A stretch of 64,000 nt of DNA from Ramlibacter sp. (GTDB lineage: Bacteria; Pseudomonadota; Gammaproteobacteria; Burkholderiales; Burkholderiaceae_C), in contig JAJTCN010000005.1 of assembly GCA_021323335.1 (NCBI GenBank), positions 1-64,000 of the forward strand, read 5' to 3'. Shown here piece after piece: positions 6,089-18,363 of the stretch. Made by a program: the position numbers and the translations under genes. The notes under the pieces are model-generated. The model ran no database searches. It was not told where the DNA came from and saw only the letters and a program-made list of their open reading frames with translations. The number at the start of each line of letters is the position of its first letter. The first letter of the stretch is position 1.

Positions 6089-8325
6089 AGTTCGAGCGCC
6101 CCGGCAGGACCTTGCGTTTCCGCCTGTTCCTGCTGGCGGCCAGCGGCTTGCTGCCCCTGGCCATCGTGGCCGCCGTGGTGCTGGCCTACCTGGCGGGCGA
6201 GCGCGAGCGCGACACGCAGGAGAACGCCCTGGCCGTCTCGCGCGCGCTGGCCACCGCGGTGGACTCCGAGCTGCGCGCTTCCGCCGGGGTGCTGGAAAGC
6301 CTGGCCCTGGCCAACGAACTGCAGCCGGCGCGCCTCGCGGACTTCCACTCGCTGGCCGGCCGCATCGCGGCGCGCCAGGACTGGCGCGCGATCGTGCTGG
6401 CGGGTGCCGATGGCCGGGTCATCCTGACCTCCTCCCGGCCTTTCGGGGGCCCGCCGGAAGAGCCCGTCGACCCGGAAAGCATGCGCCGCGCGCTCGCCAG
6501 CCGCGCACCGGTCGTGGGGAAAGTGGCCGTGGGCCGCATGCAGGTCGGGCCCGCCTTCGCGGTCCGCGTGCCGGTGCTGCACGACGGCCAGCTGCCTTAC
6601 GTGATTTCAGCGGTCATTCCCGTCGAGCGCGTGCTGGCCGTGGTGCAGCGGCAGAAGATGCCCGCCACCTCGGTGGTGGCGGTGTTCGACCAGGAGCTGA
6701 ACCGGGTGGCGCGTTCGCAGCAGCACACGGTGGGGCGCCCGTCGCCGTCCTTGCAGCGGCTGTTGGCGCGCGGCGGCCCGGAAGGCGTCGGGCCCACGGT
6801 GACGCTGGAGGGCGTGCCCAGCCAGACCGCCTTCGTGCGGCTCGAGTGGTCCAATTGGGTGGTGGCCACCGGCATCTCCGCGCACGACCGCGGGCTCTAT
6901 GGCGTGCTGGGGGCGGTGGCGGCGGGCCTGCTGGCATCGCTCGCGCTGGCGGCCTTCTTCGCCACCTACTTCGCCAGCCACGTCACCGGGCCGATCGACA
7001 CGCTCAAGGCCGCGGCCGCGGCAATGGGCCGCGGCGAACCGGTGAAGGTGCCGACACTGGAGATCTCCGAACTGCAGGACGTGGGCGACGCGCTGGAGAT
7101 CGCGTCGGCGGAGCGCGAGCGCGCCTCGCGGGAGCGGCTGGCGGCCGAGGCCGAACGCGAGACGCTGCTGGCCCGGGCCACGGAGGCGCTGCAGCAGGCG
7201 GAGGAAGCCGGCCGCAGCAAGGACGAATTCCTGGCGATGCTGGGCCACGAGCTGCGCAACCCGCTGGCCCCGATGGCCACCGCGCTGCACCTCATGGCGC
7301 GCAAGGGCGAGCCGGGCACGCGGCTCGAGCGCGAGGTGATGGAGCGCCAGGTCGCCCACATGAAGCGCCTGGTGGACGACCTGCTGGACGTGTCGCGCAT
7401 CACCGGCAAGCGCCTGGCCATCCGCATGGAGCCCTTGCGGCTGGCCGAGGTGGTGCGGCACGGCGCGCAGTCGGTGCAGCCGGTGCTGGGGCTGCGCCGC
7501 TTCGACCTGGACATCCCGCGCGACGCGGAGCAGCTCTGGGTGGCCGGCGACGAGGTGCGCCTGGGCCAGGTGCTCAGCAACCTGCTGGGCAACGCCGTCA
7601 AGTTCACGGGGCCCGAGGGCACGATCAGCGTTCGCCTCGAGCGCAGCGGCGACCACGCGCAGCTGACCGTCGCCGACACCGGCTTCGGCATGACGCCCGA
7701 AGTGCTGGAGCACGTGTTCGACCTGTTCTACCAGGCGCCGCAGGGGACCGACCGCTCGCGCGGCGGGCTGGGGCTGGGCCTGGCCATCGTGCGGAGCCTG
7801 GTCGAAATGCATGGCGGCACCGTGCAGGCGGACAGCGAGGGCGAGGGCCACGGCAGCAGGCTGGTGGTGCGCCTGCCGCTGGCCATGCCGCCGCCGGAAC
7901 CGACACCCAGCCAGCCGGCCGCCCTGGCGACCGGCTCGCATGGCCGGGTGCTGCTGGTGGACGACAACAAGGATGCGGCCGACACCGCCGGCGCGCTGCT
8001 GGAGATCTCGGGCTACGAAGTCCGCATCGCCTACGACCCGGGCGTCGCCCTGACGCTGCTCGACGACTTCGTCCCCGACGTCGCGGTGCTGGACATCGGG
8101 CTGCCGGGCATGAGCGGGCACGAACTGGCCGCGCGGGTGCGGGCGCACCGCAACGGCGGGACCTGCTATCTTGTCGCGCTGACCGGCTATGGCACCTCCG
8201 CGGACGTGGCCCGCGCCCACGAGGCGGGCTTCTCGCAGCACCTGGTCAAGCCCGCCGGACCGGGGGACCTGCTCGATGCCGTGGAACGCGGCGTCAAGGA
8301 CAGCATGCAAAGGAAGGCTTCATGA
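6085..8325 (+). CDS. Hybrid sensor histidine kinase with C-terminal receiver
   Basis: This 746-aa membrane-bound hybrid kinase has a first membrane segment at about 13-35, an extracytoplasmic sensor region of roughly 230 residues (probably Cache-like), and a second membrane segment at about 273-297. These are followed by a HAMP-like linker, a HisKA domain with phospho-accepting H388 in [12 protein letters not shown], an HATPase_c domain ([37 protein letters not shown]), and a receiver whose acceptor is about D670 in [11 protein letters not shown]. It sits in an overlapping chain between a GNAT gene and otnK with ATGA junctions on both sides. No DNA-binding output partner lies beside it, so its target is unknown. 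Co-transcription with sugar-acid genes hints at sensing a related ligand. Confidence 0.9.
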
Positions 8326-9587
8326 CCCTGCTGCTCGGCTGCATCGCCGACGACTTCACCGGCGCGACCGACCTCGCCAACAACCTGGTGCGCGCCGGCA
8401 TGCAGGTGGTGCAGACCATCGGCGTGCCCGAACACGCCGCGCCCGCGGCGGATGCGGTGGTGGTGGCGCTGAAGTCGCGCACCATCGCGCCCGACGAGGC
8501 CGTGCGGCAGTCGCTGCAGGCGCTGCGCTGGCTGCAGGCGCAGGGCTGCCGCCAGTTCTACTTCAAGGTCTGCTCCACTTTCGACTCCACCCCGCGGGGC
8601 AACATCGGCCCCGTGGCCGAGGCGTTGCTGGAAGCGCTGGGCGCCGACTTCTGCTGCGTCACGCCGGCCTTCCCGGAGAACGCCCGCACGGTGTTCCAGG
8701 GCCACCTGTTCGTCGGCGACGTGCTGCTCAGCGACTCCGGCATGCGCAACCACCCGCTGACGCCGATGACGGACGCGAACCTGGTGCGCGTGATGCAGGC
8801 GCAATCGAAGGGCCGCGTCGGGCTGATCCCGCACGAGGTGGTGCGCGCGGGCGAGGAAGGCATCCTGCGCCGCATCGCGCAGCTGCGTGGCGAAGGCGTG
8901 CGCTTCGCCATTGTCGACGCCATCGGCAACGAGGACCTGATGGCGCTGGGGCAGGCGCTGGCCGACGCGCCGCTGGTGGTCGCCGGGTCCGGCGTCGCCA
9001 TCGGCCTGCCGCAGAACCACGGCCTGCGGCCCTCGGCGGCGGCGGCAGCCCTGCCCGCGGCGACCGGCCTGCGTGCCATCGTCTCGGGCAGCTGCTCGAC
9101 GGCGACGCAGCAGCAGGTGAAGGACTTCATCGACGGCGGCGGGGCCGCGTACGCGATCGATCCGCTGCAACTGGTCGCGGACGCCGGCGCCGTGGCGAGC
9201 GCCGCGCTGGCGTGGGCCGAGCCCCGGCTCGCGCAGGGACCGGTGCTGGTGTACTCCACCGCCACGCCTGACGCCGTGCGCGAGGTGCAGCAGCGCGTGG
9301 GCGTGCAGGACGCCGGTGCGCTGGTGGAGCAGGCACTGGCGGCCATCGGCAAGGGGCTGGTGCAGCGCGGCGTGCGGCAGCTGGTGGTGGCCGGCGGCGA
9401 GACCTCCGGCGCAGTGGTGCAGGCGCTCGGGGTCGAGCAGATGCGCATCGGTCCGCAGATCGATCCCGGCGTCCCGTGGTGCTACGCGGCGGCGACGGCC
9501 TGCGGCGCGGACGTGCACCTGGCGCTGAAGTCGGGCAACTTCGGCACGCCCGACTTCTTCCGCAAGTCCTTCGCCCGGCTCGCATGA
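8322..9587 (+). CDS. otnK: 3-oxo-tetronate kinase (four-carbon acid sugar kinase)
   Basis: This 421-aa protein of the DUF1537/four-carbon acid sugar kinase family has the N-terminal signature LGCIADDFTGATDLANNL, a central FKVCSTFDSTPRGNIG substrate-binding motif, and the C-terminal nucleotide-binding VVAGGETSGAVVQALG. Characterised OtnK enzymes phosphorylate 3-oxo-tetronates in D-erythronate or L-threonate degradation. The start at 8322 overlaps the kinase gene stop (ATGA), and its own stop overlaps otnC. The otnK-otnC pair is the core of the published pathway; the matching dehydrogenase is not adjacent. The dehydrogenase at 11397-12290 is a candidate but stands on the other strand. Confidence 0.88.
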   Translation: MTLLLGCIADDFTGATDLANNLVRAGMQVVQTIGVPEHAAPAADAVVVALKSRTIAPDEAVRQSLQALRWLQAQGCRQFYFKVCSTFDSTPRGNIGPVAEALLEALGADFCCVTPAFPENARTVFQGHLFVGDVLLSDSGMRNHPLTPMTDANLVRVMQAQSKGRVGLIPHEVVRAGEEGILRRIAQLRGEGVRFAIVDAIGNEDLMALGQALADAPLVVAGSGVAIGLPQNHGLRPSAAAAALPAATGLRAIVSGSCSTATQQQVKDFIDGGGAAYAIDPLQLVADAGAVASAALAWAEPRLAQGPVLVYSTATPDAVREVQQRVGVQDAGALVEQALAAIGKGLVQRGVRQLVVAGGETSGAVVQALGVEQMRIGPQIDPGVPWCYAAATACGADVHLALKSGNFGTPDFFRKSFARLA

Positions 9588-10246
9588 ACGAAGCGCAGGC
9601 CCGCAGCGAGATCTGCCGCGTCGGCAAGAGCCTGTTCGAGCGCGGCTACGTGCACGCCACCGCCGGCAACATCAGCGTGCGGCTGGACGACGGCTACCTC
9701 ATCACGCCGACCGACGCCTGCCTCGGTTTCCTCGAGCCCGCGTCGTTGGCGAGGACGGACCTGCAGGGCCGGCAGCTGTCCGGCGACCCGGCCAGCAAGA
9801 CGCTGGTGCTGCACCGGCGCATCTACGAGGCCCATGCCGGGCTGCAGGGCGCGCCGCGCAGCGTGATCCACACGCACGGCACGCATTGCGTCGCGCTGAC
9901 CCTGGACGACCCGCAGGGCGAGCTGCTGCCGCCGATCACGCCCTATTTCGTGATGAAGGTCGGGCACGTGCCGGTGGTGCCGTACCACCGGCCCGGCGCG
10001 CCCGAAGTGGGGGACCAGGTGGCGGCTCTCGTCGCGCGTTATGCGTCGCAGGGCACGCCGCTGCGCGCGGTGATGCTCACGCGGCTGGGACCGAACGTCT
10101 GGCACGACTCGCCGGCGCAGGCGATGGCGGTGCTGGAGGAACTGGAGGAGACGGCGAAGCTGTGGCTGCTGGCGCAGCCGAAGCCGCGGGGGCTGGGGAG
10201 GCAGGCGCTGGAGGAACTGGAGAAGGTGTTCGGCTGCAGGTGGTAG
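9584..10246 (+). CDS. otnC: 3-oxo-tetronate 4-phosphate decarboxylase (class II aldolase family)
   Basis: This 220-aa class II aldolase/adducin-domain protein has zinc-binding histidines recognisable in VIHTHGTHCVAL and HVPVVPYHRPG, plus an N-terminal GYVHATAGNISVR phosphate-binding motif. OtnC family members decarboxylate 3-oxo-tetronate 4-phosphate to dihydroxyacetone phosphate, the step after OtnK. The ATGA overlap with otnK supports joint function. The alternative is a generic L-fuculose-phosphate-aldolase-like activity, but the pairing with otnK makes OtnC the better reading. Confidence 0.88.
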   Translation: MNEAQARSEICRVGKSLFERGYVHATAGNISVRLDDGYLITPTDACLGFLEPASLARTDLQGRQLSGDPASKTLVLHRRIYEAHAGLQGAPRSVIHTHGTHCVALTLDDPQGELLPPITPYFVMKVGHVPVVPYHRPGAPEVGDQVAALVARYASQGTPLRAVMLTRLGPNVWHDSPAQAMAVLEELEETAKLWLLAQPKPRGLGRQALEELEKVFGCRW

Positions 10247-11396: not shown

Positions 11397-12290
11397 TCAG
11401 GCGGCGCCCTTTTCCTGCACCAGCCGGCCCACGGCGGCCCAGTCCGCTTCCGCGTGGCCGCTGTCGCACAGCTCGCCCACCAGCCGCTCCGCGACCGGCG
11501 CGGCCTGCAGGGCCGCCCCACCCGCCTGCGCGGTGGCCAGCGCGATGCGCAGGTCCTTGCGCATCAGCCGGGCCCGGAAGCCGGGCTTGAACTCGCCGTC
11601 GATGATGCGCTGGCCGTGCTTTTCCAGCACGAAGCTGCGCGCCGTGCCACCGAGCAGCACCGCGCGCATGACGGCGGGGTCCACGCCCTGCGACCGGGCC
11701 AGCGCGATCGCATCGGCCACGCCGAGCATCGCGGCGGCCACGGCCACCTGGTTGCACGACTTCACCGTCTGGCCCGCCCCGACCTCGCCGACGTGCGTGA
11801 TGGCCTTGCAGAAGACGCCCATCACTTCCCGGCAGGCCGCCACGGCATCGGCCGGGCCGCCAATCATGCAGGCCAGCGTGCCGCTCTCGGCGCCCTGCTG
11901 GCCGCCGCTGATGGGCGCGTCGAGCAGCGTCACGCCCTGCTTCGCCAGCCGCTGCGCGAACGCGCGCGCCGACGTGGCGGCGATGGTGCTGGTGTCGACC
12001 ACGCAGCTGCCGGCCGCCAGGCCCTGCGCCAGCCCGCGCTCGCCGAACAGCACGTCCTCCACCGCCGCGTCGTCGGACAGGCAGAGGAAGACCAGCCTGC
12101 AATCGCGACCGACGTCGGCGGGCGACGCGGCGCGGATGGCACCGGCCTGCACCAGCGGCTGCGCGGCCGCGTCGCGCCGCGCGAATACGTGCAGCCGGTA
12201 ACCCGCGCGCAGCAGGCAATGCGCCATGCCGTTGCCCATCACGCCCAGGCCGATGAAACCGACCGGGCTGTCCTTGCCGAAGGACTCCAT
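11397..12290 (-). CDS. NAD(P)-dependent oxidoreductase, 3-hydroxyisobutyrate dehydrogenase family
   Basis: This 297-aa beta-hydroxyacid dehydrogenase has an N-terminal Rossmann motif GFIGLGVMGNGMAHCL, the substrate-binding DAPISGGQQGAESGTL, and the catalytic lysine block GAGQTVKSCNQVAVAAAM. Relatives include tartronate semialdehyde reductase and L-threonate dehydrogenase (LtnD); sequence reading alone does not separate them. ATG at 12290 forms a TGATG overlap with the upstream Bug gene stop, so the two form one operon. LtnD activity would supply the missing first step for otnK-otnC, but the LysR-linked promoter suggests it serves the hydroxyacid cluster instead. Confidence 0.85.
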   Translation of the reverse strand: MESFGKDSPVGFIGLGVMGNGMAHCLLRAGYRLHVFARRDAAAQPLVQAGAIRAASPADVGRDCRLVFLCLSDDAAVEDVLFGERGLAQGLAAGSCVVDTSTIAATSARAFAQRLAKQGVTLLDAPISGGQQGAESGTLACMIGGPADAVAACREVMGVFCKAITHVGEVGAGQTVKSCNQVAVAAAMLGVADAIALARSQGVDPAVMRAVLLGGTARSFVLEKHGQRIIDGEFKPGFRARLMRKDLRIALATAQAGGAALQAAPVAERLVGELCDSGHAEADWAAVGRLVQEKGAA

Positions 12291-13252
12291 CACTTGGCGA
12301 TCGCCTTGCCGATCAGGTCATACGCTTCGACGATTTCCTTCTGGAACGCCGGCCCCTGCGCATAGTCCTCCGTCAGGCCCGACTTGGCCACGTACTCCTT
12401 CCACTCCGGCGTCTGCATGGCCTTGCGGAAGCTGTCGTGCAGGTAGCGCACCACGGCGGCCGGCATGCCGGCCGGGCCCATCAGGCCCTTCATGTTGTCC
12501 AGCACGATCGGCACGCCCACCTCGGTCAGGGTCGGCACGTTCGGCAGGCCCGGAAGCCGGCTGCGCGAGAACAGCGCCAGCGGCCGCAGCCGGCCGGCAT
12601 CGATCATCGGCTTCATCTCCTCGTAGGCGCCGAAGGCGGAATCCACCTGGCCGCCGAGCACCGCGTTCATCGAGTCGGCCGCGCCCTTGTAGGGCACGTG
12701 CAGCAGCTTCACGCCGGCCTGCTTCTCCAGCACCAGGCCGGTGGCGTGGAAGATGCCGCCCTCGCCGGTGGAGCCGTACGACACCTTCTCGGCGCCCAGC
12801 TTCGCCTCGGCCAGCAAGGCCTTCATGTCGGTGAACTTCGAATCGGCCCGCACCACCAGGATGCTCGGCGCGCGCGACACCTTGATGATGGGCACGAAGG
12901 ACTTGCGCGGGTCGTAGCCCAGCGGCTTGAAGTTGCCCACGGAGGTGGTCTCGCTGCCGCCGCCGACGAACAGCGTGTACCCGTCCGGCTTGGCGTCGGC
13001 CACGGCCTGCGCCGCGATGGCGCCGGCGGCCCCGGCCTTGTTCACCACCAGCACCGGCACCGGGATGATGCCCTTGGCGGCGAAGGAGAGCTGGCGCGCG
13101 ATCTGGTCGGCCGAGCCGCCGGGGGCGAAGCCCACCAGGATGGTGATGGGCTGGGTCGGCGTCCATTCCTGCGCCCAGGCGGGCGCGGCGGCGGCGGCGA
13201 AGAGGCCGAGCGTGGCCAGGCGGCGGGTGATGCCGCGGCGGCGAATGTTCAT
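12290..13252 (-). CDS. Bug/TctC-family periplasmic solute-binding protein
   Basis: This 320-aa protein has a twin-arginine-like basic start (MNIRRRGITRRLATLG) and a hydrophobic signal segment ending AAPAWAQ. The mature TctC fold shows ITILVGFAPGGSADQIARQL, KPDGYTLFVGG and a VPYKGAADSMNAVLGGQVD core. It binds an unidentified carboxylate in the periplasm. The start at 13252 is chosen because the track ORF begins inside the promoter unit. It is the first gene of a two-gene operon with the beta-hydroxyacid dehydrogenase, and its promoter carries the same 45-bp unit found before the FMN dehydrogenase gene. No TctAB membrane genes are present. Confidence 0.92.
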   Translation of the reverse strand: MNIRRRGITRRLATLGLFAAAAAPAWAQEWTPTQPITILVGFAPGGSADQIARQLSFAAKGIIPVPVLVVNKAGAAGAIAAQAVADAKPDGYTLFVGGGSETTSVGNFKPLGYDPRKSFVPIIKVSRAPSILVVRADSKFTDMKALLAEAKLGAEKVSYGSTGEGGIFHATGLVLEKQAGVKLLHVPYKGAADSMNAVLGGQVDSAFGAYEEMKPMIDAGRLRPLALFSRSRLPGLPNVPTLTEVGVPIVLDNMKGLMGPAGMPAAVVRYLHDSFRKAMQTPEWKEYVAKSGLTEDYAQGPAFQKEIVEAYDLIGKAIAK

Positions 13253-13303
13253 CTTGTCTCCTTGGTAGGTATCCCGCGCGAGTGTCGGGCCCGGCAGCGG
13301 GCC

Positions 13304-13348
13304 CGTCCAATACATAATTCCGCGGCCATTGATGCCACTCCGGCATCA
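13304..13348 (-). promoter_or_regulatory. 45-bp promoter/operator unit, copy A (before the Bug gene)
   Basis: Read on the minus strand, the unit is TGATGCC-N5-GGCATCAATG, then 7 nt, then AATTATGTATTGGACG. The ATGCC-N5-GGCAT dyad is an exact T-N11-A LysR box, and TATGTA is a plausible -10. It overlaps the lysR stop codon (13346-13348). An almost identical unit in the same orientation relative to its gene lies at 14248-14292. Confidence 0.75.
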
Positions 13349-14251
13349 CGGCCGGCGCAGCGAAGCCACCACGTCCTGCGTCACGCGGCGGAAGGCCAGG
13401 ATGGCCGGCGTTTCCTGGCCGCGCCGCCAGGCCAGCGCCACGTGCACCGGCTCCGCCTTGTCGGCCAGCTGCACGAAGCGCACGTTGCGCGGCCGCAGGT
13501 TGCGCGCCGTCGACGGCACCACCGCGACGCCCAGCTCGGCGCCCACCAGGCCCACCACGGTGTGGATCTGCGTCGCGTGCTGCACCACCTGCGGCACGAA
13601 ACCGGCCTGCGCGCACAGCGCCTGCACGCCCGCGTGCAGCAGCGGCGCCTCGTCCCGGGGGAACATCACGAAGGGGTCGCCCGCCACGCTCTTGAGGTGC
13701 ACGCGGGTGCGGCCGGCCAGCGCATGGCGCGTCGGCAGCGCCAGCAGGAAGGGGTCGGGCATCACGGCCAGCACCTCCAGCTCGGGCGGGGCGGCCTGCA
13801 CGCGCAGCAGGCCGAGGTCGATGGTGCCGCGCACCAGCGCCGCATGCTGCGCGGTGATGGGCAGCTCCAGCAGTTCCAGCTCGATGCCGGGATGCTGCTG
13901 CCGGAAGCGCCGGATGATCGACGGCAGCAAGCCGTAGGTGGAGGAATGGATGAAGCCGAGGGACAGCCGGCCCAGCTCCCCGGTGCCGGTGCGGCGCGTG
14001 TCGGTGACGGCGCGCTCCAGCTCCTGCTGGATGGCGCGGCTGCGCTCCAGCAGCAGCGCGCCCGCGGGCAGCAGTTCCACCCGCCGCTGGGTGCGGCGCA
14101 GCAGCGGCGTGCCCAGCGCTTCCTCGAGCTGCTGCACCTGCCGCGACAGCGCCGGCTGCGCGATCGCCAGCCGGGCGGCCGCGCGCCCGAAGTGGAGCTC
14201 CTCGGCGACGGCCTGGAAATAGCGCAGCTGGCGGATGTCGATCATGGTCAT
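13346..14251 (-). CDS. LysR-family transcriptional regulator
   Basis: This 301-aa regulator has an N-terminal winged helix-turn-helix (IRQLRYFQAVAEELHFGRAAARLAIAQPALSRQ) and a C-terminal periplasmic-binding-protein-like effector domain. Starts at 14251 (MTMIDIRQ) or 14245 (MIDIRQ) are both possible; the first ATG overlaps operator copy B. It is divergent from the FMN dehydrogenase operon and reads toward the Bug/dehydrogenase operon. LysR boxes overlap both its start and stop codons, which implies that it controls both flanking operons and itself. The effector is probably a hydroxyacid intermediate of the cluster. Confidence 0.92.
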   Translation of the reverse strand: MTMIDIRQLRYFQAVAEELHFGRAAARLAIAQPALSRQVQQLEEALGTPLLRRTQRRVELLPAGALLLERSRAIQQELERAVTDTRRTGTGELGRLSLGFIHSSTYGLLPSIIRRFRQQHPGIELELLELPITAQHAALVRGTIDLGLLRVQAAPPELEVLAVMPDPFLLALPTRHALAGRTRVHLKSVAGDPFVMFPRDEAPLLHAGVQALCAQAGFVPQVVQHATQIHTVVGLVGAELGVAVVPSTARNLRPRNVRFVQLADKAEPVHVALAWRRGQETPAILAFRRVTQDVVASLRRP

Positions 14252-14292
14252 GCCGCAAAGGCATCAATGAAGCCCCAATTATGTATTGGACG
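14248..14292 (+). promoter_or_regulatory. 45-bp promoter/operator unit, copy B (before the FMN dehydrogenase gene)
   Basis: The plus strand reads TCATGCC-N5-GGCATCAATG, 7 nt, AATTATGTATTGGACG. It matches copy A outside the two spacers, apart from one base in the left arm. The LysR dyad ATGCC-N5-GGCAT (14250-14264) overlaps the first possible lysR start codon. TATGTA at 14280-14285 is the likely -10 for the rightward operon. Confidence 0.75.
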
Positions 14293-14325
14293 CGAAATTG
14301 CATCTCGCGGACACTCCGGGCTCCC

Positions 14326-15564
14326 ATGCAGATCGAATCCCCCGCAGCCGCCGCGGCCGCGCAACCTGCCGCCGTCGCCGCTGCCGCGAACCACCCCATC
14401 GCGCTGCCGGCGCGCCTCGGCCACGTCCTCTCGCTCGACGACTTCGAGCGGGCCGCGCGCCGCCACCTGCCGGCGCCGGTGTTCGCCTACATCTCCGGCG
14501 CGGTCGAGCGCAACGCCTCGCTGCGCGCCAACGCCGCCGCCTTCGAACACTACGAATTCCTGCCGCGCATGCTGGTGGACATCTCGCGCCGGACGACCTC
14601 GGCCACCGTGTTCGGCAAGCGCTGGTCGGCGCCGTTCGGGCTGGCGCCCATGGGCATCAGCGCGCTGTCCGCCTACCGCGGCGACCTCGTGCTGGCCCGC
14701 GCCGCCGCCCGCGAGAACGTGCCGATGGTCATGAGCGGCTCCTCGCTGATCCGCCTGGAGGAGATCGTGCAGGCCAACCCGGACGCCTGGTTCCAGGCCT
14801 ACCTGCCGGGCGACGAGGCCAACATCCGCGCGCTGATCGAGCGGGTCGCGGCGGCCGGCTATCGCACGCTGGTGATCACCCTGGACTCCTCCATCGCGGC
14901 CAACCGGGAGAACAACGTGCGCGCCGGCTTCTCGACGCCGCTGCGCCCGAGCCTCTCGCTCGCCTGGCAGGGCGTCACGCATCCGCGCTGGCTGTTCGGC
15001 ACCTTCCTGCGGACCATCGCCGTGCACGGCATGCCGCACTTCGAGAACAACTACGCGCGGCGCGGCGCCCCCATCCTGTCGGCCAACGTGCAGCGCGACT
15101 TCTCGGACCGCGGCCACCTGAACTGGGACCACCTGCGCATGATCCGTTCCCTCTGGACGGGCAACCTGGTCGTCAAGGGCATCCTGGACCCGCGCGACGC
15201 GCGGCTGGCCGTGGAGCACGGCGTGGACGGCATCATCGTCTCCAACCACGGCGGCCGCCAGCTCGACGGCACGGTGGCGCCCCTGCGCATGCTGCCGCAG
15301 GTGGTGGCCGCGTGCCCGGACGTGCCCGTCATGATCGACAGCGGCTTCCGCCGCGGCACCGACGTGCTCAAGGCGCTGGCGCTGGGAGCGAAATTCGTCT
15401 TCGTCGGCCGCCCGTTCAACTACGCCGCCTCGGTGGCCGGCGAGGACGGCGTGCGCAAGGGCATCACGCTGCTGCGCGACGAAGTCTCGCGCAACATGGC
15501 GATGCTGGGCGTCAACGACCTCCGCGAGCTCGACGCCAGCTACCTGCTGCCGGCCGCCGCCTGA
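14326..15564 (+). CDS. FMN-dependent alpha-hydroxyacid dehydrogenase (LldD-like)
   Basis: This 412-aa enzyme of the L-lactate dehydrogenase/glycolate oxidase/mandelate dehydrogenase family oxidises an L-2-hydroxyacid to a 2-oxoacid with FMN. Visible motifs are the FAYISGAVERNAS tyrosine region, FGLAPMGISAL, the catalytic-base histidine in IIVSNHGGRQLDG, and the FMN phosphate site IDSGFRRGTDVLKALALGA. The N-terminal 30 residues form an Ala-rich extension. The track ORF start at 14281 lies within the putative -10 region, so ATG 14326 is used. It is the first gene of a rightward operon with RraA-like, D-2-hydroxyacid dehydrogenase and Bug genes. The exact substrate is not determinable; lactate itself is only one option. 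Confidence 0.88.
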   Translation: MQIESPAAAAAAQPAAVAAAANHPIALPARLGHVLSLDDFERAARRHLPAPVFAYISGAVERNASLRANAAAFEHYEFLPRMLVDISRRTTSATVFGKRWSAPFGLAPMGISALSAYRGDLVLARAAARENVPMVMSGSSLIRLEEIVQANPDAWFQAYLPGDEANIRALIERVAAAGYRTLVITLDSSIAANRENNVRAGFSTPLRPSLSLAWQGVTHPRWLFGTFLRTIAVHGMPHFENNYARRGAPILSANVQRDFSDRGHLNWDHLRMIRSLWTGNLVVKGILDPRDARLAVEHGVDGIIVSNHGGRQLDGTVAPLRMLPQVVAACPDVPVMIDSGFRRGTDVLKALALGAKFVFVGRPFNYAASVAGEDGVRKGITLLRDEVSRNMAMLGVNDLRELDASYLLPAAA

Positions 15565-15621: not shown

Positions 15622-16299
15622 ATGGTCGGTCTCCAGATCCTCAAGCGGCAGCGGCAGGTTGCCGAACAGCACATCCAGGCCTTCGCCGCCATCCCGGTGG
15701 CCAACGTCAGCGACTGCATGACGCGCATGACGGCGGGCGGAGCGCGCCTGCGCCCCATGCACAAGGGCGGCAAGCTCGCCGGTCCCGCGCTGACGGTGAA
15801 GTGCCGGCCCGGCGACAACCTGATGATCCACAAGGCGCTGACGATGGCGCAGCCCGGCGACGTGATCGTCGTGGACGCCGGCGGCGACCTGACCAACTCC
15901 CTGTTCGGCGAGCTGATGGTCAACACCGCCATCCAGCGCCGCGTCGCGGGCGTGGTGCTGAACGGCGCGGTGCGCGACTGCGACGTCATCGCCCAGCTGG
16001 ACTTCCCCCTGTACGCGGCGGGCGTCACGCACCGCGGTCCCTACAAGGACGGCCCCGGCGAGATCAACGTGCCGATCGCCATCGACGGCATGGTCATCGA
16101 ACCCGGCGACCTGATCCTCGGCGACGCGGACGGCCTGCTGTGCGTGCCCTTCGACGAGGTCGAAGCGGTGCTGGAGGCTTCGCGCAAGAAGGTGAAGCTC
16201 GAGGAACAGATGATGGCGGACATCAAGGCCGGCACGCTGGACACCGCCTGGATCGACGTGACGCTCAAGCGCATCGGGTGCGCCCCGACGCCGCGCTGA
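15622..16299 (+). CDS. RraA-family aldolase/decarboxylase-like protein
   Basis: This 225-aa protein of the RraA/HMG-aldolase superfamily has the conserved VVDAGGDLTNSLFGELM and VAGVVLNGAVRDCDVI blocks, including the G-x-x-R-D motif that binds metal and pyruvate enolate in 4-hydroxy-4-methyl-2-oxoglutarate aldolases. In a catabolic operon such proteins act as class II pyruvate aldolases or oxaloacetate decarboxylases. The RNase-E-inhibitor function of E. coli RraA is less likely here. It follows the FMN dehydrogenase by 57 bases and overlaps the next gene (TGATG). A pathway of oxidation to an oxoacid followed by retro-aldol cleavage is a reasonable inference. Confidence 0.85.
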   Translation: MVGLQILKRQRQVAEQHIQAFAAIPVANVSDCMTRMTAGGARLRPMHKGGKLAGPALTVKCRPGDNLMIHKALTMAQPGDVIVVDAGGDLTNSLFGELMVNTAIQRRVAGVVLNGAVRDCDVIAQLDFPLYAAGVTHRGPYKDGPGEINVPIAIDGMVIEPGDLILGDADGLLCVPFDEVEAVLEASRKKVKLEEQMMADIKAGTLDTAWIDVTLKRIGCAPTPR

Positions 16300-17336
16300 T
16301 GCCGATGGCGAACGAAAAGCGCGTGGTCCGCTCGGACCTCTGGATCGACCCGGCCTTCGACGCCCGCCTGGCGCGCGAGGCCGGCGTGTCGCTCGGCGTG
16401 TTCGCCACGCAGGGCGCCGCAGCCGCCGCCTGGGACCAGCTGGCGGCCGCGCACGTGTACCACGTGTCCGCCGCCAAGGACGAACTGCCGCGCGAGTGGT
16501 TCGCCGGCCCCGATCTGCTGGCGCGCTGCCCGCAGTTGCTGGCGGTGTCCTCCAGCGGCGCCGGCTACGACACGGTGGACGTCGCGGCCTGCACCGCCGC
16601 CGGCGTGGCCGTCGTCAACCAGGCCGGCGGCAACGCCACCTCGGTGGCCGAGCACACGCTGGCCATGATGCTGGGCGTGTCGCGCCGCATGATCGAGTGC
16701 GACCGGCGGATGCGCCGCGAACAGGGTTTCACGCGCGAGGACGTGATGGGCCGCGAGATCCACGGCAAGACCGTGGGACTGGTCGGCCTGGGCCACGTCG
16801 GCACGCGCGTGGCCGCGTTGGCCAAGGCCTTCGGCATGGACGTGATCGCCGCCGACCCGCTGCTGCCCGACGACGAGATCGTGCGCCGCGGCGCCCGGGC
16901 CGTCACGTTCGACCAGCTGCTGGCGCAGGCCGATTTCGTCTCGCTGCACTGCCCGCGCGATGCGACCACGCTGAAGATGATGGATGCGAAGGCCTTTGCC
17001 CGCATGAAGAAGGGGGCGATCTTCGTCACCACCGCGCGCGGCGGCATCCACGACGAGCAGGCGCTGGTCGATGCGCTGCAATCTGGCCACCTGGCCGGCG
17101 CCGGCGTCGACGTCTGGGACCGCGAGCCCCCGCCGCTGGACCACCCGCTGCTGGCGATGGACAACGTGTTCGCCAGCTTCCACATCGCCGGCGTCACGCA
17201 CGAATGCCGGCGCAACGTCGCGCAGATGGCCGCCGAGCAGATCGCGCTGCTGCTCGCCGGCGGCCGCCCGCCGCGCCTCGTCAACCCCGAGGCCTGGCCC
17301 CGTTTCGAAGAAAGGCGCGCACGCATCCTCGCGTGA
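16299..17336 (+). CDS. D-2-hydroxyacid dehydrogenase, NAD-dependent
   Basis: This 345-aa member of the D-isomer-specific 2-hydroxyacid dehydrogenase family has the NAD-binding motif TVGLVGLGHVGTRVAALAKAFG, the catalytic arginine in TTARGGIHDEQAL, a glutamate region GVDVWDREPPP, and the catalytic histidine in ASFHIAGVTHE. It would interconvert a 2-oxoacid and a D-2-hydroxyacid in the cytoplasm. ATG 16299 overlaps the preceding stop as TGATG; ATG 16305 is an alternative. Together with the FMN enzyme, which acts on L-isomers in its family, the operon could handle both stereoisomers of one hydroxyacid. Confidence 0.87.
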   Translation: MPMANEKRVVRSDLWIDPAFDARLAREAGVSLGVFATQGAAAAAWDQLAAAHVYHVSAAKDELPREWFAGPDLLARCPQLLAVSSSGAGYDTVDVAACTAAGVAVVNQAGGNATSVAEHTLAMMLGVSRRMIECDRRMRREQGFTREDVMGREIHGKTVGLVGLGHVGTRVAALAKAFGMDVIAADPLLPDDEIVRRGARAVTFDQLLAQADFVSLHCPRDATTLKMMDAKAFARMKKGAIFVTTARGGIHDEQALVDALQSGHLAGAGVDVWDREPPPLDHPLLAMDNVFASFHIAGVTHECRRNVAQMAAEQIALLLAGGRPPRLVNPEAWPRFEERRARILA

Positions 17337-17373: not shown

Positions 17374-18363
17374 ATGCAACGCTTCCCCTCCTTCCTGCGC
17401 CGCCTGGTGCCGGCCCTCCTGCTCTCCGCCGCGGCGGCCGTGGCGACCAGCCCCGCGCACGCGGCCTACCCCGAGGCGCCGATCAAGATGATCGTGGCCT
17501 ACGGCGCCGGCGGCGGCACCGACATCATCGCCCGCGTGATGGCGCCCTATATCGCCAAGTACCTGGGCAACAACGCCAGCGTGGTGGTGATGAACCGGGC
17601 CGGCGCCGGCGGCGGCATCGGCTTCGGCGAGATCGCCAATGCGGCGCCGGACGGCTACACCATCGGCTTCATCAACACGCCGAACGTGCTGACCATCCCG
17701 ATCGAGCGCAAGAGCAACTTCCACTGGCAGAACTTCGAGCTGCTGGGCAACGTGATCGACGATCCGGGCAACTTCTCGGTCCACGCCGAGAGCCCCATCA
17801 AGAACCTGGCGGACCTGGTGGCATACGCCAAGGCCAATCCGGGCGCGGTCACCTACGGCACCACCGGCATCGGCTCCGACGACCACCTGGCCGCCCTGAT
17901 GTTCGAGCGCGCCGCGGGCGTGAAGCTGACGCACGTGCCGTTCAAGGGCGCCGCCGAAGTGCACAACGCGATCGCCAGCCGGCAGATCATGATGGCCGCG
18001 ATGAACATCGGCGAGGCGCTGCAGTACGCCAAGGGCGGCACGCCGCTGCGCCAGCTGGGCCAGATGAGCACCAACCGCACCGTCCTGGCGCCGAACGTGC
18101 CCACCTTCAAGGAGCAGGGCTACGACATCGTGATGGCGTCGCTGCGCGGCATCGCCGCGCCGAAGGGCATGCCCGCGCCGGTGCGCGAGCAGCTGGTGAA
18201 TGCGATCCAGAAGGCCGCGGCCGATCCCGAGTTCCAGGCCAAGTCCGCGAGCTACTTCGCGCCCTTGCGCTACCTGCCGCCGGCCCGCTACGACGCGGAA
18301 CTCAAGGAAGCCGAAGCCGGTTTCAAGCAGCTGTGGAACCAGATGCCCTGGGGCGACAAGTAA
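17374..18363 (+). CDS. Bug/TctC-family periplasmic solute-binding protein
   Basis: This 329-aa binding protein has a signal peptide MQRFPSFLRRLVPALLLSAAAAV ending near AHAAYPEAP. The mature domain shows IKMIVAYGAGGGTDIIARVM, APDGYTIGFINTPNV and THVPFKGAAEVHNAI. It closes the LysR-controlled hydroxyacid operon, 37 bases after the D-2-hydroxyacid dehydrogenase. It is the third Bug protein in the first 18 kb and differs clearly from the one at 12290-13252, so the two LysR-flanking operons each encode their own periplasmic binder. A REP-like hairpin follows. Confidence 0.92.
   Translation: MQRFPSFLRRLVPALLLSAAAAVATSPAHAAYPEAPIKMIVAYGAGGGTDIIARVMAPYIAKYLGNNASVVVMNRAGAGGGIGFGEIANAAPDGYTIGFINTPNVLTIPIERKSNFHWQNFELLGNVIDDPGNFSVHAESPIKNLADLVAYAKANPGAVTYGTTGIGSDDHLAALMFERAAGVKLTHVPFKGAAEVHNAIASRQIMMAAMNIGEALQYAKGGTPLRQLGQMSTNRTVLAPNVPTFKEQGYDIVMASLRGIAAPKGMPAPVREQLVNAIQKAAADPEFQAKSASYFAPLRYLPPARYDAELKEAEAGFKQLWNQMPWGDK

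Follow-up and report, generated by a model that had tools for sequence, protein, structure and literature searches.

The lysR gene of this locus, from the soil bacterium Ramlibacter sp., is flanked on both sides by copies of one operator unit. This twin operator is real, conserved and well-formed, and its mechanism is ordinary and textbook for the LysR family. Each unit very probably constitutes a complete LysR-type activator-dependent promoter, so that one inducible LysR protein would drive both flanking operons and probably repress its own gene. The flanking genes in the window, the whole 64,000-nucleotide stretch of DNA that was analysed, are plausibly organic-acid genes, and they suggest that a hydroxylated organic acid is taken up and oxidized. 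That they make up two half-pathways, as a preliminary description had it, is a guess. The features of the locus are as follows.

11397 to 12293, minus strand: hibDH, a dehydrogenase of the 3-hydroxyisobutyrate/tartronate-semialdehyde reductase family
12290 to 13252, minus strand: tctC_A, a TctC/Bug-type periplasmic receptor (Pfam TctC); operon A begins with this gene, whose Shine-Dalgarno is AAGGAGACA
13281 to 13286, minus strand: putative -10 of unit A, GACACT, 18 nt after TTGGAC
13304 to 13348, minus strand: unit A, with operator and -35 region oriented toward tctC_A-hibDH, overlapping the lysR stop codon
13332 to 13346, minus strand: unit A dyad ATGCC-N5-GGCAT (T-N11-A), predicted recognition site, centre at about -65
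13346 to 14245, minus strand: lysR, LysR-type regulator of 299 aa (HTH_1 and LysR_substrate)
14248 to 14292, plus strand: unit B, with operator and -35 region oriented toward the FMN_dh operon, directly upstream of the opposite-strand lysR
14250 to 14264, plus strand: unit B dyad ATGCC-N5-GGCAT, predicted recognition site, in the probable 5' leader of lysR
14278 to 14291, plus strand: ATTATGTATTGGAC of unit B, predicted activation half-site (GTAT) and -35 TTGGAC
14310 to 14315, plus strand: putative -10 of unit B, GACACT
14326 to 15564, plus strand: FMN_dh, an FMN-dependent alpha-hydroxyacid dehydrogenase (LldD-like) and first gene of operon B
15622 to 16299, plus strand: rraA, RraA-like aldolase/decarboxylase family protein
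16305 to 17336, plus strand: D2HDH, D-2-hydroxyacid dehydrogenase family protein
17374 to 18363, plus strand: tctC_B, a second TctC-type receptor

Unit A reads TGATGCCGGAGTGGCATCAATGGCCGCGGAATTATGTATTGGACG on the minus strand (13348 to 13304) and unit B reads TCATGCCGCAAAGGCATCAATGAAGCCCCAATTATGTATTGGACG on the plus strand (14248-14292). The two lie within 1 kb and are identical at 35 of 45 positions. Both 45-bp units had been proposed at these positions in the preliminary description, and the sequence together with motif searches of window and genome confirmed them. In the window, ATGCC-N5-GGCAT occurred in units A and B and nowhere else (0.15 sites expected), and AATTATGTATTGGACG with up to three mismatches was likewise confined to the two units (0.01 expected). 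The full motif at the same tolerance gave two matches in the 4.49-Mb genome, compared to none for the reversed control; no third copy was found in that genome with the combined motif at up to three mismatches. The lysR TGA (13346-13348) lies inside unit A, as described. Unit B does overlap the most upstream lysR ATG (14249-14251), the first possible start, but by comparison with orthologues the true start is 14245 (MIDIRQLRYF), right after the unit B dyad on the lysR strand. The repeat also proved longer than the 45 bp originally outlined, since GACACT, 18 nt after TTGGAC, is common to both copies.

Eighteen Ramlibacter units were aligned. The dyad arms ATGCC and GGCAT, CAAT, ATTATGTATTGGACG (given also as TATTGGAC) and ACACT were fixed or nearly fixed, with nearly fixed spacing; the variable parts were the N5 between the arms, the spacer and the sequence separating -35 from -10. 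Unit B arm variants were a GTAT arm in two Ramlibacter copies and an ATAC arm in one. The ATTATGTA-TTGGAC block was kept in 15-16 of the 18 units, and the activation-site block was degenerate in two unit A copies (G040 and G032). ACACT followed TTGGAC by 18-19 nt in all 18 units, in the form (G/C)ACACT with one AACACT-like context, and in every unit the -10 ended 58-59 bp from the centre of the dyad. The recognition site of LysR-type activators is established at about -65. A start 6-7 nt beyond the -10 places the dyad centre at about -65, and a T-N11-A dyad was so centred, relative to this predicted start, in 18/18 units. A second site beside or overlapping the -35 was evident by sequence: GTAT adjoins TTGGAC and is separated from the GCAT arm by about two helical turns, which fits an activation site.

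The conserved right-hand segment of the unit had previously been called the promoter part. Its conservation was upheld, but the segment equals the activation site plus the -35 box rather than a whole promoter, and the -10 had been missed. NATTAT in the conserved block was considered as a -10 and rejected, because, with TTGGAC taken as the -35, every unit has an ACACT 18-19 nt further on and the dyad then lies at about -65. A strict sigma-70 promoter scan of the locus, run with a terminator scan, returned no promoter and no terminator; the absence of a strict match is expected of activator-dependent promoters, yet it is not positive support. For target searches the alignment gives the consensus ATGCC-N5-GGCAT-CAAT-N9-ATTATGTATTGGAC-N18/19-SACACT.

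Conservation was assessed in 60 Ramlibacter genomes, with 77% identity or more defining a lysR orthologue. Ten genomes carried the orthologue and twelve carried the unit, including all ten with the orthologue (Fisher p = 9e-10). Unit B was present in 10/10 orthologous loci. Unit A was present in seven, exactly those with tctC_A directly after lysR (p = 0.008). The search for the paired motif around lysR orthologues, suggested earlier as a check, thus recovered both units in seven loci and unit B alone in three, which argues for the strong constraint that had been proposed. The loci of R. pallidus (L023) and R. cellulosilyticus (L027) have both units; those of R. monticola (L025) and G009 lack unit A. 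The orthologous loci also support the same orientation of each copy toward its flanking operon and the reading of the units as LysR-box operator/promoters. Named orthologous loci at this threshold came from Ramlibacter and one Comamonadaceae bacterium; in another genus of the family (G190), a lysR of 73% identity was accompanied by unit B.

In two of the genomes, G009 and G014, hibDH directly follows lysR, and apparent dyad remnants (ACGCCGTGAAGGCAT and TGATGCCGGGGCGG, respectively) were seen at the lysR end. The lysR match in G013 (L121:6710-7592) consists of two overlapping pieces, implying a frameshift, followed by unrelated sequence; unit B is intact there, and unit A and tctC_A are absent. 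The two further unit-bearing genomes, found by pattern search, were G032 and G028. G032 carries an orphan unit A (L120:321-361) in front of tctC_A-hibDH-glutaminase; a lysR orthologue was detected neither next to this copy nor elsewhere in the assembly, which is 92% complete. A three-mismatch unit in G028 (L009) lies beside a different LysR gene, about 31% identical, in the same layout (ATGCC-N5-GGCAT ... ATGCATTGGAC-N18-GACAAT).

The preliminary description had also suggested recent duplication. Under this explanation, duplication or gene conversion of one promoter segment made both copies, and their likeness would reflect copying and not function; 35 of 45 identical bases within 1 kb could be taken in its favor. 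We compared 28 variable and 29 conserved positions in the seven genomes with both units. At the variable positions, A and B of the same genome shared a mean of 8.9 of 28, compared to 9.4 when A and B were taken from different genomes (permutation p = 0.75). At the conserved positions, 25-29 of 29 matched in every A/B pair. Both copies were found in seven species, and the lysR genes of the other six are 77-89% identical to that of the window. Since the variable positions of A and B agree no better within a genome than across species, their likeness is the product of old selective constraint on functional positions, and recent copying, which is very unlikely, was abandoned as the explanation. 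An ancient duplication could be the source of unit A.

A related layout was seen well beyond the genus. GYAT-N19-22-TTGGAC, often with a (G/C)ATACT-type -10, was found upstream of divergent LysR relatives down to about 40% identity (Achromobacter, Cupriavidus and Nocardia) and also in the 54-59% relatives of Azospirillum and Salinarimonas. A broader pattern, GYAT-N18-24 with several -35 variants, was searched in 80 LysR-relative loci and in shuffles; it matched 32/80 loci (27 with a 19-22 nt spacer) compared to about 1/80 shuffled, the loci being phylogenetically non-independent and many from Achromobacter. The recurrence of this layout in distant relatives indicates that the conserved promoter part characterizes this group of regulators, and it provides a simple rule for predicting targets of the group. 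In Azospirillum agricola (L029) and Salinarimonas rosea (L030) the lysR relative is divergent from rraA, and only a unit B-like operator was seen. By sequence inspection, the genes after rraA there appear to encode dehydrogenases of three kinds: malate/lactate-type, iron-type alcohol and aldehyde. Distant orthologues with a unit B-like operator and rraA next to them suggest that the divergent lysR and rraA pair is the older core.

The lysR product was assigned to the LysR type by Pfam PF00126 (7e-22) and PF03466 (4.5e-43), both above curated cut-offs. Its closest PDB matches were 7w06, CatM and BenM, and its recognition helix, IAQPxLSRQ, is closely similar to theirs. The NCBIfam exception models for CatM and BenM scored 151 and 146 bits against cut-offs of 580 and 600, marking the protein as related but not a member, and the AlsR exception model scored 273.5 bits, below its cut-off of 430. 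CatM and BenM of Acinetobacter are the nearest named solved relatives. Their Site 1 is ATAC-N7-GTAT, a T-N11-A site (PMC6628147), of which ATGC-N7-GCAT is a variant. Downstream of Site 2, PbenA has a -35-like TTGAAC (PMC6628147), as TTGGAC here lies past the activation site. Unlike the CatM/BenM sites, the arms here are ATGC...GCAT, only the GTAT half-site is evident at the activation position, and two full units flank the regulator gene. No repressing Site 3 of the CatM/BenM type was identified at the Ramlibacter units.

The nah and sal promoters have a common conserved upstream region; nahR and sal are divergently oriented, and nah lies elsewhere. Both of these catabolic operons (pNAH7) are activated by one LysR-type regulator, NahR (PMC7291925). 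A single regulator for two operons is likewise predicted here, but the second unit is positioned where the regulator gene ends and faces a co-directional downstream operon. The C3 and C4 operons of Pseudomonas denitrificans have 3-hydroxypropionate-responsive LysR regulators, one for each operon (PMC4617489). Like the present locus, they combine a divergent LysR-type gene with an adjacent operon that encodes enzymes of the 3-hydroxyisobutyrate dehydrogenase family, and self-regulation is presumed for them too; they differ in having a regulator per operon and no twin unit around one regulator. A literature search found no paper on this TctC-LysR arrangement.

From the observed sequence, geometry, conservation and co-occurrence with the regulator, we infer a scheme of binding, activation, autorepression and induction. 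One LysR tetramer per unit would bind each operator separately. The dyad ATGC-N7-GCAT, centred at about -65, would be recognized with high affinity. The activation site would be GTAT, a half-site some two helical turns on that abuts the -35 TTGGAC, and (G/C)ACACT 18-19 nt downstream of TTGGAC would act as a weak -10. With inducer bound, probably an organic acid, the second dimer would engage the activation site and RNA polymerase would be recruited. The predicted output is tctC_A-hibDH from operon A, possibly with the glutaminase gene behind, and FMN_dh-rraA-D2HDH-tctC_B from operon B. The unit B dyad is within the probable lysR leader and ends a few bases short of the start, so LysR at this dyad should repress lysR; it is this position that suggests autoregulation. 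CATAAT, the reverse complement of the conserved ATTATG, could be the lysR -10. A DNA loop between the units across lysR was considered and found no support: dyad-dyad distances of 913-967 bp, or 86.95-92.1 turns, were not helically phased.

Some LysR-type proteins alternate between repressing and activating sites (PMC11739112; CatM/BenM, PMC6628147), and LysR might chiefly repress, as a roadblock on both units, with the right-hand block and its -35-like TTGGAC forming an ordinary promoter for other factors. This is unlikely. A dyad at about -65 with the weak -10 GACACT is activator geometry, an operator only at -65 would leave RNA polymerase unblocked, and the layout recurs in distant LysR relatives. 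Recognition of the unit by another regulator or sigma factor, its nearness to lysR being incidental, would account for the unit A of G032 without a neighboring lysR, but two copies only in the genome and a T-N11-A dyad adjoining the regulator's own start argue against it. Unit and lysR also occurred together in 10/10 Ramlibacter genomes and in G190, compared to one clear orphan, and we consider this explanation highly improbable.

Activation of both operons by LysR, the favored reading, might be followed by different modes of translation. On the B side, 6-11 nt separate the putative -10 from the FMN_dh start codon in 10/10 Ramlibacter unit B loci (10 nt in the window, 14310-14326), with no Shine-Dalgarno. 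We therefore predict little or no leader on the operon B mRNA, whose translation may be leaderless. Codons after the B-side ATG showed mostly substitutions that keep M-Q-(I/L)-(E/D) across loci, so this start is probably used. On the A side the start lies 19-32 nt after the -10, with GGAGAC. One operator-promoter cassette may thus be used twice, with a Shine-Dalgarno leader at A and a leaderless or nearly leaderless start at B, and unit A may travel with tctC_A as a portable module; we put this forward tentatively and with some doubt. Portability is suggested by the orphan copy in G032 and by the joint absence of unit A and tctC_A in three species.

For this uncharacterized regulator the analysis yields a regulon prediction of two operators, two operons, a consensus and a small candidate target set, which would help to assign the substrate of the TctC-linked organic-acid cluster. 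Within operon A the hibDH start codon overlaps the tctC_A stop (12290-12293). Beyond it, 8322-10246 encodes a 3-oxo-tetronate kinase, which scored above its NCBIfam cut-off, and a 3-oxo-tetronate-4-phosphate decarboxylase-like protein, which scored below. The genome motif search found no unit copy at these genes. The pair is convergent to operon A and recurs near operon A in several Ramlibacter loci.
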